A DNA stretch of 64,000 nucleotides from the NCBI GenBank assembly GCA_018819105.1, contig JAHJQV010000023.1, positions 1 through 64,000 on the forward strand, in the 5' to 3' direction. The stretch is from Gammaproteobacteria bacterium. GTDB taxonomy: Bacteria; Pseudomonadota; Gammaproteobacteria; Xanthomonadales; Wenzhouxiangellaceae. Position numbers and translations under genes: made by a program. Shown in pieces: positions 771-17,959 of this stretch; within the stretch, counting starts at the first letter, position 1, and the number at the start of each line of letters is the position of its first letter. The notes under the pieces were generated by a model, which worked only from the letters and a program-made list of their open reading frames with translations, was not told where the DNA came from and ran no database searches.

Positions 771-3611
771 ATGTCTCAACCACAACCTATGCGCACAATG
801 ATGAATGTTATCAGTGGCCAGACCCGCCACCGCAGCGCTGCGGTGGCGCTGGCGCAGATGGGTTTCGTGCTGCTGTTGTTGTTGCTCGCAGGCTGTCGCA
901 GCGACGTGCCTCAGCCGGGCTACCAGTCCAGCGCTGCTGTGCTGCCCACCGGGGCGCTGGATGCCTCGCTGGCGCGACCACTGGCGTATCGTCTGCACAT
1001 GCAGATCGATCCGCGCCAGCCACGCTTCTCTGCCGAATTGGAGCTGGACATCGCCTTGCTGCAGCCCGATGACGGCATCTGGCTGCATGGCCAGAACATT
1101 GTGGTTGAGCACATTGCCCTGCGCGACAGTGACGTGGAGGTGGATTATCAGCAGCGCCATGCAAGCGGTGTGGCCAGGGTTGGTTTTGCCACCCCGCAAC
1201 CGGCGGGTGAACTCACCCTGCTGATTCGCTATCAGGCCGCGTTCGATGACAACCTGGCTGGCCTGTTCCGGGTACAGGAGCAGGGCGACTGGTATGCGCT
1301 GGCCAAATCTGAATCGATCCAGGCGCGCAAGTATCTGCCGGGTTTTGACCAGCCGGGCTTCAAGGCGCCGTTGCAGATCACTCTCGACATTCCCACTGGC
1401 CAGCAGGCCATCAGCAACACGCCGGCGTTCGCCCAAAGCGTGCTGGGTGATGGCATGACCCGCTGGCAATTCATGCCCACACCACCGATGCCGACCTATC
1501 TGCTGTCACTGGCGGTGGGGCCGTTCGATGTGGTGGAGTATCCGCCGATTCCGGCCAATGGCATCCGCGATCGCGAGATACCGCTGCGCGCAGTGGCCCG
1601 GCGTGGCAAGGCCGACGCCATGCGGCAGGTGATGGCGATCACTGCCGATTTTGTCAACATTCTGGAAACCGAACTGGGCGTGCCGTATCCGTTCCGCAAG
1701 CTGGATATCGTCGCCGCACCGGCCTGGCCCAGTGGGGCCACCGAGCTTTCGGCAGCCATCAGTTATCGGGAAGAGCGGCTGTTTCTGCCGGATGATGCAC
1801 CACCGGCGGCACGCCTGGGCATGCTCGGCATTCACGCCCATGAGTTGGCCCACATGTGGTTCGGCAATCTGGTCACACCGCCCTGGTGGGACGATCTGTG
1901 GTTGAAAGAGGGCTTTGCCACCTGGGCCACACCGCTGACCCTGCAGCGTTTTGAGCCGGAGCAAAGCCATGCGCTGAATGGTCTGCGGCGCAATTTTGCC
2001 GTGATGCAGGACGATGCGCTGGCCAGTGCCCGCGCCATTCGCGAGCCGATTGTGCGCAATGAAGACATCCGCAATGCCTACGATGGCATCACCTACAGCA
2101 AGAGTCAGGCTGTGCTGCACATGCTGGACAGCTACTTTGGCGCCGAGCGTTTTCGTGCAGCGCTGGGCGAGTATCTGCGTGAGTTTGCCCATGGCACAGC
2201 CGATGCCGATCAGTTTTACGCCAGCATTGCCGCCAGCATGCAGCAGCCCGAACTGATCACGACGCTGCGCAGCTTTGTCGAGCAATCCGGTGTGCCGGTG
2301 GTCAGCTTGGATGCCGCATGCAGCGCCATGGGCAGTGAACTGACACTGCAGCAGCACCGCTATGCGCCACTGGGTTCGGCTTTGCGTGCAGCACATGACC
2401 CGCTGGCGGTGGCATCGACGGCAACCGCCAGCGCCGCCGAACGCAGCTGGAGCATACCGCTGTGCCTGCGTTATGGCATCGCCGGCAACAGTTACCGGCA
2501 CTGCGCCCTGCTGACGGCACCTGAACAGAGCATGAGTCTGCCGCAGACGCAGTGTGCGGACTGGATCATGCCCAACGCGGCAGGCAGCGGATACTATCGC
2601 TGGCAGCTTGCGGACTCCGGCTGGCAGGCATTGCTGCAGCATTATGCTGCACTTGACGCCGGTGAAAAACTGGCCCTGATCGACAGTCTGCAGGCGGCGA
2701 TGGCAGCCGGGGAAGCGGATCTGGAGACCTTTTTGCAGCTGGTGGAAACCATGTTGCAGCAAGCGGACACCCAGCCACGTCAGGTCATGCAGGCACCGCT
2801 GACGGTGTTTGCCGACACGCTGCAGCGGGTGTTGCCGGCAGACCAGGCCAACACCTTGCGTGGGCGTCTGCAACGGCTGTATCGCGATATCGATGTCTGC
2901 AGCCAGGCCGGCGACAATAGCGATCAGCAGTTGCTGTGCCGCAGCATGCAGCAGTTTCGTGCTCTCACGCTCAACGACAGCCTGCTGCGGGCACAACTGG
3001 CAGACCGCGCGACGCGCTTTATCGGTCTGCATTCAGCACCGGTGCCGCAGGCGCTGGATGCTGATCTGTATGAACTGGCGCTGACGGTGGCGGTGCAGGA
3101 CATCGGCACGCGCTTTTTTGTCGCCCTGCAAAGTTTCGCTGCCGATTTTGATGATCCCCGTTTTGCTGCGGCAGTGCCGGTTGCGCTGGGTGCTATCAGT
3201 GACCCCGAACTGCTTCCGGCCGCCCAGGAGCTGCTGCTGCGGGCACCTGCTGACGAAACTGCCCAGGGTTTTCATCTGGGTCCGCGCGAGCGTTTTGACA
3301 TGATCATGAGCATGTTCCAGAACAGTGCGCTGCGCGCGCAGCACTGGTCCTGGTACGCGCAGAATCTGCCCCGGATCCTGCAGCTGATTCCGGAGCAGTG
3401 GCAGCGGCGCACGCCGGAGGCGGCTGCTGTGTTCTGTTCGGCGCAACAGGCTCAGGCTCTGCAGCAGCTGTTTGCGCGCCATGGCGATCTGGCACCCGGA
3501 CACGAACGCGCATTGGCGCAGACGCTGGAATCGATCCAGTTGTGTGCGGCCCTGCGCAAAGCGCTCACTGCACCCAATGCGGTGGCAGCCCAGCAGGCCG
3601 CCAATGGCTGA
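771..3611 (+). CDS. M1-family zinc aminopeptidase, predicted lipoprotein
   Basis: A 946-residue gluzincin. The zinc site is HELAH (His357, Glu358, His361) with the third ligand Glu380 in WLKEGFATW, exactly 18 residues on. The transition-state Tyr442 sits in ITYSKS. The exopeptidase motif, normally GAMEN, reads GATEL at 322-326: the Glu that holds the substrate amino group is kept but Met and Asn are changed. The N-terminus has a leucine run ending in a lipobox LAGC (Cys42), so it should be an acylated envelope protein rather than cytosolic PepN. The C-terminal 400 residues look like the helical ERAP-like domain of the family. Alternative starts at 789, 798 and 801 are possible; 801 would give a more usual signal-peptide length. 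The gene overlaps glmU by 8 bases. Confidence 0.88.
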   Translation: MSQPQPMRTMMNVISGQTRHRSAAVALAQMGFVLLLLLLAGCRSDVPQPGYQSSAAVLPTGALDASLARPLAYRLHMQIDPRQPRFSAELELDIALLQPDDGIWLHGQNIVVEHIALRDSDVEVDYQQRHASGVARVGFATPQPAGELTLLIRYQAAFDDNLAGLFRVQEQGDWYALAKSESIQARKYLPGFDQPGFKAPLQITLDIPTGQQAISNTPAFAQSVLGDGMTRWQFMPTPPMPTYLLSLAVGPFDVVEYPPIPANGIRDREIPLRAVARRGKADAMRQVMAITADFVNILETELGVPYPFRKLDIVAAPAWPSGATELSAAISYREERLFLPDDAPPAARLGMLGIHAHELAHMWFGNLVTPPWWDDLWLKEGFATWATPLTLQRFEPEQSHALNGLRRNFAVMQDDALASARAIREPIVRNEDIRNAYDGITYSKSQAVLHMLDSYFGAERFRAALGEYLREFAHGTADADQFYASIAASMQQPELITTLRSFVEQSGVPVVSLDAACSAMGSELTLQQHRYAPLGSALRAAHDPLAVASTATASAAERSWSIPLCLRYGIAGNSYRHCALLTAPEQSMSLPQTQCADWIMPNAAGSGYYRWQLADSGWQALLQHYAALDAGEKLALIDSLQAAMAAGEADLETFLQLVETMLQQADTQPRQVMQAPLTVFADTLQRVLPADQANTLRGRLQRLYRDIDVCSQAGDNSDQQLLCRSMQQFRALTLNDSLLRAQLADRATRFIGLHSAPVPQALDADLYELALTVAVQDIGTRFFVALQSFAADFDDPRFAAAVPVALGAISDPELLPAAQELLLRAPADETAQGFHLGPRERFDMIMSMFQNSALRAQHWSWYAQNLPRILQLIPEQWQRRTPEAAAVFCSAQQAQALQQLFARHGDLAPGHERALAQTLESIQLCAALRKALTAPNAVAAQQAANG

Positions 3612-10591: not shown

Positions 10592-11332
10592 ATGCGGGCT
10601 AGCAGTGCGGTTTTCTGGGCGCAGCCGCTGCGCGATTACATCATGCTGCTGGAGCAGGGCAGCAGGCATTTCACCCTGTCGCGGCTGCTGTTGCTGCTGC
10701 TGACCGCGCTCGCCGGCTGGTGGCTGTACGTGCCCGCACACGAATTGCTGCATGCCTTCGGCTGTCTCTGGAGCGGTGGCGAGGTGTCGCGCCTGGAGCT
10801 GGCCCCGGAATATGGCGCAGCCTGGCTGCAGCGCCATTTTCCCTGGATCAGCGTCGGTTCGGACTATGCCGGTCAACTGACCGGATTTGACACCCACAGC
10901 AATGATGTCATTTATCTGATCACCGTGCTGGCACCCTATGTGTTGACCTTGTTTCCGGGCATGCTGTTGTGGACTTATGCTGTCAATGCCGACTGGCGGC
11001 GCAGCGATGTGTGGGCACTGACCGGCTTCAGCTTCAGCATGGTGGCAGCGCCGTTCATTTCCATTTTTGGCGACATGTATGAGGCAGCATCCATCGTCAC
11101 CACGCGCATATTGCGGCTGCTGGATGGTGGTGCCGATGTGCAACGCTGGCGCAGCGATGACCTGTTGCTGCTGATGCGTCAGCTGGCTGCCGACATCAGC
11201 GGACTGGATATGGTGATGCTGAGCGCCGGTTTGCTGCTGGCAGTGCTGCTGGCATGGTCGTTGTTCTGGCTCGGGCGACGACTTGCCGTGGCCACACTGG
11301 TCGTGCTGGCACAGCAGCGGGTTCGCACATGA
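10592..11332 (+). CDS. Integral membrane protein with HELLH zinc motif
   Basis: I do not recognise the family with certainty. The 246-residue protein has four or five membrane segments. HELLH (His50, Glu51, His54) lies at the end of the first segment, followed by GCLWSGGE, as in M50-type site-2 proteases where the HExxH sits in a membrane helix. A candidate third ligand (an Asp in a later helix, e.g. in SIFGDMYEA) is visible but not proven. The loop with LAPEYGAAWLQ and the DYAGQLTGFDTH segment look lumenal. It overlaps the next gene by 4 bases (ATGA), which makes a two-gene unit. It may be an intramembrane protease or a degenerate relative. Confidence 0.6.
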   Translation: MRASSAVFWAQPLRDYIMLLEQGSRHFTLSRLLLLLLTALAGWWLYVPAHELLHAFGCLWSGGEVSRLELAPEYGAAWLQRHFPWISVGSDYAGQLTGFDTHSNDVIYLITVLAPYVLTLFPGMLLWTYAVNADWRRSDVWALTGFSFSMVAAPFISIFGDMYEAASIVTTRILRLLDGGADVQRWRSDDLLLLMRQLAADISGLDMVMLSAGLLLAVLLAWSLFWLGRRLAVATLVVLAQQRVRT

Positions 11333-12174
11333 CTGGCGGTGGCAAACAGGTGCGAGTCATTCCGGCCTGGTCCGGCTGGCGCAGTCTGATGCAGGCCGGC
11401 GACCTGATAGGCCAGCACTGGCCGGTGTACCTGCAGGTGATGGGCTTGTGGCTGGCCATCTCATTGCTGCTGGGGGCGATTCCGGCCGGCAATCTGTTGT
11501 TGTTGCTGCTGGCACCACTGCTGCAGGGCGGTGTGATGCTGATGTTTGATCGTCAACTGCAGCATGGCAGACTGCAGGCGACCGACCTGTTCAGCATGTT
11601 CGCGCATGCCCAGCGCAATGTGCTGATCATGGCCATACTGTGGCTGCTGCTGGCGATGTTTGTCGTCATTTTGGTGGCCATGATGCCTTTTGCCGAGTTG
11701 CTGCAGTCAGTGCAGACGATCAGAACCCTGGAGGATCTGCAACAGCTTGAGCTGCCATCGCAACAGCTGCTGTGGATGCTCACGGCACTGTTTGCGGCCA
11801 TCGCGCTGGTGTCTATGCTGTGGTTTTTTGCCGTGCCGCGTATCGTGTTTGATCTGCTGCCGGCGGGCACCGCGCTGATCGACAGCCTGCGTGCCTGTGT
11901 GCGCAACTGGCGCGCGCTGTTGACCTTCGGCATGGCGTATCTGGTGATCGGCACCGCTGCGGTGATCATGCTGGTGATGATCAATCTGATCCCCGTTCTG
12001 CTGTTGGGAGAAACTGCCGCGATCGCGGTCTCGGAACTGCTGGTGGCTTTTTTGACCACGGCATTGCAGGTGCTCAATGTCGGTGGTATTTATCTGCTCT
12101 GGCGGCAGGTCTATCCGCGAGTGGATGCCGATGTCATGTCGGCGTCAGATGATGAAGCCCGCTTTTTAGCTTGA
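11329..12174 (+). CDS. BPSS1780-like polytopic membrane protein
   Basis: A 281-residue protein with about six hydrophobic helices (first at residues 25-65, last two near 190-260). A cytoplasmic N-terminus begins MTGGGKQVRVIPAWSGW. The pattern resembles uncharacterised BPSS1780/YciC-like membrane proteins, which have no assigned reaction. No catalytic motif is visible. The ATG overlaps the stop of the upstream HELLH protein, so both are probably co-translated and may work together. The C-terminal tail after the last helix is acidic (SASDDEARF). Confidence 0.65.
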   Translation: MTGGGKQVRVIPAWSGWRSLMQAGDLIGQHWPVYLQVMGLWLAISLLLGAIPAGNLLLLLLAPLLQGGVMLMFDRQLQHGRLQATDLFSMFAHAQRNVLIMAILWLLLAMFVVILVAMMPFAELLQSVQTIRTLEDLQQLELPSQQLLWMLTALFAAIALVSMLWFFAVPRIVFDLLPAGTALIDSLRACVRNWRALLTFGMAYLVIGTAAVIMLVMINLIPVLLLGETAAIAVSELLVAFLTTALQVLNVGGIYLLWRQVYPRVDADVMSASDDEARFLA

Positions 12175-12198
12175 GCCCGGCACGGTTGCGATGCGCAT

Positions 12199-12345
12199 AA
12201 AAAAGTGGCCCCGTGAGCAGGGGAGGACTCACGGGGCCGAGGCGATTCGGTAATTTTGGGGATTGACCGAATCTATGCTGATGGCGCCTAGGGAGTGAAA
12301 CGCCACCAACAGTGCATATGATGCACATTCGCTGTGAAAGTTTCG
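12199..12345 (-). ncRNA. Candidate structured small RNA, four hairpins
   Basis: Four stem-loops follow each other between the convergent upstream gene and comM. They are: 12312-12317/12321-12326; 12282-12286/12301-12305; 12244-12251/12266-12273 (perfect 8 bp); and 12207-12217/12228-12238 (perfect 11 bp). Read on the minus strand the last is followed by AC and six Ts, an intrinsic terminator. On that strand three loops carry CU-rich strings (CUCCCU, AUCCCCA, UCCUCCCC) that could mask Shine-Dalgarno sites. Upstream (12327-12430) is AT-rich, with only a weak promoter (TATACG). On the plus strand the same loops read GGGA and would look like CsrA/RsmA sites, but no terminator follows. The structure could instead be just the comM 3' end. 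Confidence 0.45.
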
Positions 12346-12434
12346 TATATTCAGATGCACTGAGATAAATTTTTACATAAGTTCAAACTAATGTATTAGC
12401 TTGGTCGCGTAAATATCGTCTTTTTTCCACCGTT

Positions 12435-12467
12435 AATCCGGATTGGTCATGAATAATCCGGAATGGT
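12435..12467. repeat. Short tandem repeat downstream of comM
   Basis: Two copies of a 13-base unit (12435-12447 and 12455-12467) differ at one position and are 20 bases apart. Each contains the near-palindrome AATCCGGATT. Together with flanking TTAA they could form a weak stem-loop. They may mark the comM 3' end; no other role is evident. Confidence 0.4.
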
Positions 12468-12493
12468 TAACCCGGCAATCTTTGATGGATGGT

Positions 12494-14023
12494 TCAATGA
12501 TGCTGTCTGAGGATGCGGCGGTAGTTGATCGCTTCGCTGAGGTGACGTGTGCCGATGCCGTCACTGGCATCAAGATCGGCGATGGTGCGGGCCACCCTGA
12601 GTATGCGTTGCCAGGCACGCGCGGACAGCTGCAGCTTGTCTGCTGCACGCTCCAGCAGTTGCTGATCCGGCGCAGTCAGAATGCAGTGTTCTCGCATGGC
12701 GGCTGAACTCAGCTGCGCGTTGCTGCAGGATTGTCGCTGCAGTTGCCGTTGGTATGCGTCCTGTACGCGCTGTCGCACCGCAGCGCTGGGCTCCCCGGCT
12801 GGTGCCTGCTGGTGCAGTTCGCGATGCGCCAGCCGCGGCACTTCAATCTGTATGTCGATGCGATCCAGCAGGGGCCCGGAAATCCGGCTGCGATAGCGCG
12901 CGATCTGCTCGCCGGTGCAGCGGCAGCGTGTGCTCATGGCATCACCGGCATAACCGCAGGGACAGGGGTTCATCGCCGCGATAAGCTGAAAGCGCGCCGG
13001 GAACTCGGCCTGACGCGCTGCCCTGGATATGGTGATGCTGCCCGACTCCAGCGGTTCGCGCAGCACCTCCAGCACACGGCGATCGAACTCCGGCAGTTCG
13101 TCCAGAAACAGCACGCCGTGATGCGCCAGCGAAATTTCTCCCGGCCGCGGGTGTGAGCCGCCGCCGACCAGGGCGACACCACTGCAGGTGTGGTGCGGAT
13201 GCCGGAAGCGGCGCTGCTTCCAGTGTTTGGGATGCAGCGGCTGACCACTGATGGAGGCCACGGCCGCAGCCTCCAGCGCCTGTTCGTCACTGAGTTCCGG
13301 CATGATGCCCGGCAAGCGGCTGGCGAGCATGGTTTTGCCGGTGCCCGGTGGCCCCACCAGCAGCAGGTTGTGACCGCCGGCGGCAGCGATCTCCAGAGCG
13401 CGTCTGGCCTGATGCTGTCCACGCACATCGGCAAGATCAGCGATTTCTGCCGTCACCATGGCAGCGCTGTCCGTGATCGCAGCTTCCAGTTCGTGGCAAT
13501 GTGGCAGCTGTTCGTGCTGGTGCAGATGAGCACACACCTGCAGCAGGCTGGCGGCGGCATAGCTCTCATGGCCGGTGACCAGCGCCGCCTCGGCAGCATC
13601 GGCTGCCGGCACAATCAGGGCATGATCGCATTTGGCCGCCGCCAGCACCGCTGGCAGGATGCCTCCGGTGGCGCGCAGATCGCCGCTGAGTGACAACTCG
13701 CCGAGGAACTCGTAGTGGTTCAGGGTTTCGGCATTGATCTGCCGCGATGCGGCGAGGATGCCGAGTGCAATGGCAAGGTCAAAGCGACCGCCATCCTTGG
13801 GCAGGTCGGCCGGTGCCAGTGACACCGTGATGCGCCGCGCCGGCACCTCGAATCCACTGTTCTGCAACGCTGCGCGCACTCGATCCTTGCTTTCCTTGAC
13901 CACCGTTTCCGGCAGCCCGACGATGGACATCTTCGGCAGACCACCGGCCAGATTCACTTCCACACTGACCGCCGGCGCATGGATGCCGACCTGCGCGCGT
14001 GACTGCACGATGGCCAGACTCAT
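12494..14023 (-). CDS. comM: ComM/YifB-type Mg-chelatase-like AAA+ helicase
   Basis: A 509-residue protein with the full ComM layout. An N-terminal Lon-like (ChlI) domain has the GLPETVVKESKDRV motif. The AAA+ core has Walker A GPPGTGKT (224-231) and Walker B GVLFLDELPEF. A zinc-knuckle-like NPCPCGY...CRCT insert precedes the C-terminal Mg_chelatase_C helical domain. In naturally competent bacteria ComM is a hexameric branch-migration helicase that extends recombination of incoming DNA; the family is broadly conserved also in non-competent species. It is encoded downstream of ubiK on the same strand, a common gammaproteobacterial order. Presence alone does not show competence. Confidence 0.95.
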   Translation of the reverse strand: MSLAIVQSRAQVGIHAPAVSVEVNLAGGLPKMSIVGLPETVVKESKDRVRAALQNSGFEVPARRITVSLAPADLPKDGGRFDLAIALGILAASRQINAETLNHYEFLGELSLSGDLRATGGILPAVLAAAKCDHALIVPAADAAEAALVTGHESYAAASLLQVCAHLHQHEQLPHCHELEAAITDSAAMVTAEIADLADVRGQHQARRALEIAAAGGHNLLLVGPPGTGKTMLASRLPGIMPELSDEQALEAAAVASISGQPLHPKHWKQRRFRHPHHTCSGVALVGGGSHPRPGEISLAHHGVLFLDELPEFDRRVLEVLREPLESGSITISRAARQAEFPARFQLIAAMNPCPCGYAGDAMSTRCRCTGEQIARYRSRISGPLLDRIDIQIEVPRLAHRELHQQAPAGEPSAAVRQRVQDAYQRQLQRQSCSNAQLSSAAMREHCILTAPDQQLLERAADKLQLSARAWQRILRVARTIADLDASDGIGTRHLSEAINYRRILRQHH

Positions 14024-17458: not shown

Positions 17459-17590
17459 GTGGTTCTCCTGTGCACACCCGCACGGTGCGGCAGGAAACGG
17501 CAGTCATCACGCCGGCAACAGGCCGACGCAACCGCCGGCAGCCCACCGCTGGCCGTAGTTCAAAGATTCATCGCGCAAACACGATGAACG

Positions 17591-17795
17591 CCAGTGCAGG
17601 CCGGTCTCCGGACTCATGATGGCTGGCAGGCGGTGAGCCTGCCAGCGACATTGCCAACCTTCCCGTGCAAGCACAGTGGCAGGGCTTGGGCACAAGGCCA
17701 AAAACCCAAGGCAAACAATCAATTACCGTTGCGGGGGCAGTGCCGGAATAAAGCTTTGTACAAGCTTGCACCGGCTTCCCGTTTCAACCAGTCAC
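17591..17795 (-). promoter_or_regulatory. Cobalamin riboswitch upstream of btuB
   Basis: On the minus strand the conserved blocks of the adenosylcobalamin riboswitch occur in order. GGTTGAAACGGGAA lies at the 5' end, followed by GCCCCCGCAACGGTAA. The B12-box region GCCACTG with GGGAAGG comes next, then AGTCCGGAGACCGGCCTGC at the 3' end. Between its end and the btuB ATG (17459-17590) lie two further hairpins, one just upstream of the AGGAG. That suggests B12 binding blocks translation initiation, lowering BtuB when the cofactor is plentiful. A -10-like TATCAT is at 17827-17832 on the minus strand, about 30 bases upstream. Confidence 0.95.
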
Positions 17796-17826
17796 GTCAA
17801 TGCGCTGACTGGTCACCTGCGGCAGC

Positions 17827-17832
17827 ATGATA
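17827..17832 (-). promoter_or_regulatory. Possible -10 element for the btuB transcript
   Basis: TATCAT on the minus strand is placed so that transcription would start just before the riboswitch. No convincing -35 box accompanies it. Confidence 0.35.
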
Positions 17833-17959
17833 ACATGCACCGGCAAGGGTAGGAGTCGGTCTTGCCGGGGTGAGTTGTGCAATAACGATTCGTCTGATGT
17901 TTGGAGGCTCACGTAGATCTGTGCTGGTTACAGATCCAATATATTTGCATGAGGATTAG

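Follow-up and report, generated by a model that had tools for sequence, protein, structure and literature searches.

The analyzed stretch of DNA (64,000 nucleotides, hereafter the window) carries the comM gene (Mg-chelatase-like) on the minus strand at 12494..14023 and a convergent ORF without a Pfam match on the plus strand at 11254..12174. The gap between them, from 12175 to 12493, contains a candidate small RNA (sRNA) gene on the minus strand, which probably encodes an RNA of about 113 nt with three C-rich hairpin loops and has a stress-type promoter of its own. The predicted RNA occupies positions 12199..12311 (minus strand), as indicated by a covariance model match (model R1) and by the folding z-score, with an inferred 5′ end accurate to ±3 nt. 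The comM gene is its upstream neighbor on the same strand, and the comM stop codon is located about 183 nt ahead of the predicted RNA start; the ORF at 11254..12174 forms the other flank. An earlier reading made from the sequence only (the sequence-only reading) had the hairpins filling the whole gap up to comM, whereas they occupy only part of it. Further along the window, a cobalamin riboswitch aptamer was found at 17582-17835 on the minus strand (98 bits, far above the cut-off).

Secondary Structure and Terminator of the Predicted RNA

The MFE of the minus strand was −62.3 kcal/mol, compared with a mean of −35.4 kcal/mol for shuffled sequences (z = −8.18), and none of the 200 shuffles was as good; the fold of the plus strand was much weaker in the shuffle test (z = −3.12). 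Three stem-loops were modelled on the minus strand, and compensatory changes were found for all ten modelled pairs of SL1 (12276..12311, loop CACUCCCU; 48 sequences), all ten of SL2 (12244..12273, loop region AAUCCCCAAAA) and 10 of the 11 of SL3 (12207..12238, loop CCUCCCCU). The SL3 stem is that of an intrinsic terminator, being followed on the minus strand by AC and then by a T6 tract (12199..12204, read from the sequence), and it had the top score among the seven terminator-like sites in the 3.5 kb scanned, in agreement with the earlier assignment of the last hairpin as a terminator. The RNA loops contain CUCCC, UCCCC and UCCUCCCC, that is, the loop sequences previously read on this strand.

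Of the four consecutive hairpins proposed in the sequence-only reading, these three were retained and one was rejected. The rejected hairpin, GUGCAUCAUAUGCAC (12312..12326, minus strand), is the first of that series; it overlaps TCATA and spans the promoter −10 region, and even within the genus it is not conserved. The genus has one other species, which carries GGTGCATCATAGTGG at this site; there no hairpin is formed, and the promoter letters are kept. Since this segment belongs to the promoter and not to the RNA, the RNA start was placed near 12311 instead of 12345.

Covariation and Transcribed Strand

Among 48 homologues, compensatory changes on both sides were present in 30 of 31 pairs, 95.3% of the base-pair cells were paired, and the covariation score was 0.674, versus 0.226 after shuffling and at most 0.14 when the partners were slid, with the reservation that fitting this alignment to the model biased it towards the modelled structure. 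When 22 sequences, that of the window among them, were aligned independently with MAFFT, 20 of the 29 predicted pairs still had compensatory changes. The loops proved to be conserved among relatives, with CCC kept in all three of them in 46 of the 48 homologues.

On the minus-strand reading, the base-pair cells included 131 GU and 23 AC; because GU cells far outnumbered AC cells, the minus strand was fixed as the transcribed one. The covariance models matched this strand only, and GGA was found in just one of 144 loops of the transcribed strand. These data bear on the second option of the sequence-only reading, in which a plus-strand RNA of the RsmY/CsrB type would act as a sponge, offering GGA in its loops to the CsrA/RsmA protein. 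The loop complements do read GGGGA, GGGGAGGA and AGGGAG, and the likeness to RsmY/CsrB sponges consists in such GGA hairpin loops, which are located on the complementary strand, whereas the promoter, the terminator and the wobble pairs all belong to the opposite one. Given the weaker plus-strand fold and the lack of a terminator on the plus strand, in addition to the strand bias of the wobble pairs, this option was rejected as extremely improbable. For the other option, a minus-strand regulatory RNA with CU-rich, anti-Shine–Dalgarno-like loops and a terminator, strong support came from covariation, from the conservation of the loops and from homology to a family around sX13.

Promoter Analysis

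The consensus for RpoE (sigma-E) promoters is GGAACTT followed by TCTGA. Directly upstream of the predicted RNA, an RpoE/ECF-type promoter was identified on the minus strand, with the −35 element GAAACTT at 12338..12344 and the −10 element TCATA at 12317..12321, separated by a 16-nt spacer. The −35 element is kept in all four comM-linked relatives and reads GGAACTT or GAAACTT across the family, in which the spacing is 16–17 nt; relatives have GGAACTT-N16/17-TCTCA, TCTGA and similar sequences at this site. The GAAACTT-N16-TCATA sequence starts 106 nt ahead of the terminator stem, at the near-fixed distance that is also found in the R1 family.

Promoters were scored with an outside RpoE consensus (maximum 12), and dinucleotide shuffles served as the control. 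The mean score for 42 loci was 10.26 of 12, versus 7.98 in the shuffles, with 32 of the 42 at p ≤ 0.05, and the promoter-to-terminator distance was nearly constant across these loci. The promoter is located upstream of the region covered by the covariance model and therefore played no part in finding the homologues. The window promoter departs from the consensus in two respects (GAAACTT for GGAACTT and TCATA for TCTGA) and taken alone had p = 0.015; the 3.1 Mb genome contains just four instances of the strict pattern GRAACTT-N16/17-TCNNA, one of them at the RNA locus. A simple scan of the minus strand revealed no sigma-70 promoter, both sites found being on the plus strand.

The rpoE gene was above the curated cut-off in all 21 genomes searched, including the source genome. 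The promoter of an autoregulated rpoE was considered as a guide to the local sigma-E consensus and discarded, as no RpoE-type promoter was found upstream of the source genome's own rpoE. On the promoter sequence, the RNA at the window locus is most likely induced by envelope stress via RpoE.

The promoter is also of importance for a third option of the sequence-only reading, namely, that the RNA is just the 3′ UTR of comM with its terminator or an sRNA cut from the comM transcript. This would be consistent with the position of comM about 183 nt upstream on the same strand, with the last hairpin, which would stop read-through, and with the presence of the RNA behind comM in four genomes. However, it is the promoter directly upstream that is conserved, while the remainder of the gap between comM and the RNA is not; in most relatives, homologues with the same promoter are found behind polA and have no link to comM, and in two genomes the RNA is on the strand opposite to polA. 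A 3′ UTR of comM was consequently rejected as the primary identity of the RNA, for which it is improbable, and would be at best a side effect, although some read-through from comM may occur.

Distribution of the RNA in the Family and Its Relocation

By DNA searches, the RNA was detected behind comM in the other member of the genus (92% identity) and in the sister genus (two species, 72–73% identity), whereas in the other genera searched behind comM it was not comM-linked. In genera g2, g3, g6 and g7 of the family, a strongly conserved RNA of the same type is located behind polA, and in g5 genomes the RNA is placed elsewhere, in some of them on the polA contig. No RNA was found behind polA in the genus of the window (g1) or in its sister genus g4, either by reading the downstream regions or by model search. 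In the source genome, the site downstream of polA that is occupied by the RNA in relatives seemingly holds an IS30-type transposase reading frame, as judged by eye.

For covariance model R1, 18 polA-linked RNAs from the family were used, and every comM-linked copy was left out. The sequence-only reading had suggested a covariance search with an alignment from related genomes as a check; in the source genome, R1 gave a single match, at 12200-12323 (61.1 bits, E = 1.3 × 10−15); the three other comM-linked copies scored 44.7–59.4 bits. Because R1 matches the comM-linked RNA although it was made without comM-linked copies, this RNA is assigned to the polA-linked family. The simplest history consistent with this distribution would be a relocation of the RNA from polA to comM in the common ancestor of g1 and g4. 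Structure, strand, conservation of loops and promoter, homology and relocation are all shown by the sequence.

Several g6 genomes contain a second C-rich hairpin RNA, for example at G006:C4:70640-70765 (plus strand), with sigma-70-looking TTGACA...TACAAT upstream; in G006, it adjoins a tRNA gene. This is possibly another, differently controlled C-loop sRNA.

Comparison with sX13

No Rfam family matched the region at the gathering threshold. At a low threshold, sX13 (RF02232) matched over the whole length with 18.2 bits (E = 0.26; cut-off 50 bits), and the window was the best sX13 match in the whole source genome; the other low-threshold matches, to snoRNAs and a miRNA, were dismissed as chance, sX13 being the only one that made sense. 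The sX13 RNA of Xanthomonas is 115 nt long, has three C-rich loops, represses mRNAs with G-rich motifs near the start codon, is Hfq-independent, and reaches higher levels under high salt, at 37 °C and in minimal medium (PMC3771888). That paper confined it to Xanthomonadaceae and placed it invariably behind polA; its authors noted C-rich-loop sRNAs in distant bacteria and raised the question of whether relatives of sX13 are encoded at the polA locus elsewhere among bacteria (PMC3771888).

Like sX13 (about 115 nt), the window RNA has three stem-loops, each ending in a C-rich apical loop, and the third of these stem-loops is the terminator. Most relatives of the window RNA are located behind polA, as is sX13, whereas the window RNA itself differs in place (behind comM, with none behind polA) and in its score, which is far below the sX13 cut-off. 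A further difference is the clear RpoE-type promoter, since consensus scoring revealed no clear sigma-E promoter match at true Xanthomonadaceae sX13 copies. Across the order, the sX13 model detected sub-threshold RNAs in many families, and most of these RNAs immediately follow polA. The window RNA is very probably a relocated and diverged relative of Xanthomonas sX13, which is its nearest named family; the polA-linked family to which it belongs would include sX13 and ErsA or border on them. The hfq gene, a target of sX13 in Xanthomonas, was considered as a conserved target and set aside, as a G-rich start region is absent in the genus of the window (no GGGG at the ribosome-binding site); hfq was the one orthologous target examined, and short G-rich motifs arise by chance too frequently to point to targets across the genome.

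Two Xanthomonadaceae-like genomes (G037 and G048) have a second, shorter C-rich-loop RNA candidate, which scored 39 bits with the broader model R2 and lacks a sigma-E-type promoter.

Putative Relatives Across Gammaproteobacteria and Comparison with ErsA

Of 274 genomes sampled from the class Gammaproteobacteria, 104 had a match (E ≤ 0.001) to the broader covariance model R2, which was derived from the 48 homologues. The class was recognised from named relatives (Pseudomonas, Thiocapsa and Microbulbifer) and from Xanthomonadaceae-like genomes in the order of the window; in Thiocapsa and Microbulbifer, R2 places the RNA behind polA. At the 75 R2 loci examined, the promoter score was at least 10 in 79% of cases, compared with 2% of shuffles, polA was present within the fetched flank at 44 loci, and the spacer was 16 in 54 of 59 class-wide promoters. 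At each of the 17 top class loci tested, the RNA had no Rfam match at the gathering threshold. Tandem copies of C-loop RNAs were observed behind polA, four in one case (G229:C33:13148-13900, minus strand) and three in another (Endozoicomonas sp. G2_2, 2891-3519), each with its own GGAAC-type promoter.

In all three of the Pseudomonas/Stutzerimonas polA loci, weak R2 matches (19.6–21.4 bits) fell on the Rfam family Pseudomon-1/ErsA (RF01719), which itself had no match at E ≤ 10 in window positions 12150-12500. ErsA is reported to lie between polA and engB and to require sigma-22, which in Pseudomonas corresponds to sigma-E (PMC5819304, PMC8575079). It shares with the window RNA and its relatives the RpoE-type promoter geometry and the C-rich loops (the last two hairpins of ErsA), and its polA–engB locus resembles the polA linkage of these relatives. 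As for the RpoE/AlgU-type control reported for ErsA, the sequence of the window promoter would fit it, and rpoE is present. Unlike the window RNA, ErsA is 132 nt long and has a long unstructured U-rich domain that replaces the first C-rich hairpin; Hfq dependence has been reported for some of its targets. Two other kinds of polA-locus RNA were compared by description and by the Rfam non-match, which revealed no sequence relation. Spot 42 needs Hfq and regulates carbon metabolism; the alpha-r7 sRNAs likewise have three stem-loops with C-rich motifs at the polA locus (PMC3771888).

Convergence might account for the C-rich three-hairpin RNAs seen in different families, in which case the window RNA would be analogous, but not homologous, to sX13 and ErsA. 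The occurrence of C-rich-loop sRNAs in distant bacteria (PMC3771888) is compatible with this, as are the R2 matches in other classes (up to 44 bits) and the overlap of R2 with the Burkholderia anti-hemB RNA (RF02837); because of these two observations, weak R2 matches may be analogues. Nevertheless, convergence is hard to square with the common three-hairpin order, the fixed-distance promoter and the polA linkage across families, and the within-family match has an E-value of 1.3 × 10−15, so that this explanation is considered unlikely. The anti-hemB overlap was observed at G507:C1:531347-531457 (plus strand), which may be a further relative or an analogue. On balance, we lean towards the view that an ancient RpoE-controlled sRNA with three C-loops, ancestrally located behind polA, extends through much of Gammaproteobacteria, with sX13 and ErsA as its lineage-specific forms and the window RNA as a relocated copy.

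Discussion

The locus is very likely that of an independent sRNA gene with an RpoE-type promoter and three C-rich hairpins, similar to sX13 and ErsA, which has been relocated behind comM and whose product would repress mRNAs through loop pairing. According to this proposal, envelope stress would activate RpoE, the RpoE (sigma-E, ECF-type) promoter would drive a transcript of about 113 nt terminated by SL3, and the RNA would accumulate; its C-rich loops would then pair with G-rich ribosome-binding sites and block the translation of several mRNAs. Repression through loop pairing is proposed because it is known for Xanthomonas sX13, and sigma dependence because it is reported for Pseudomonas ErsA, in both cases together with the conservation described above; for the window RNA, transcription, RpoE dependence, the pairing mechanism and an action on target mRNAs are inferred.

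The kind of RNA is known from sX13 and ErsA. What appears to be new is that an sX13-like RNA occurs far outside Xanthomonadaceae, scores below the Rfam threshold, carries an RpoE-type promoter and has moved from polA to comM; a putative class-wide series linking sX13 to ErsA is new as well. In a literature search of limited reach, no paper naming both sX13 and ErsA was found, and 'downstream of polA' together with 'sRNA' led to the sX13 paper only.

The question of the sX13 authors concerning the polA locus would thus be answered by a wide series of relatives that probably share one trigger, the RpoE envelope-stress promoter. In the genus of the window, promoter, loops and structure have been kept after the departure from polA. 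The proposal predicts that many bacteria for which a sigma-E small RNA has yet to be described share an envelope-stress output directed at G-rich ribosome-binding sites, and, if it is true, sX13 and ErsA, so far studied separately, would be two forms of one RNA.
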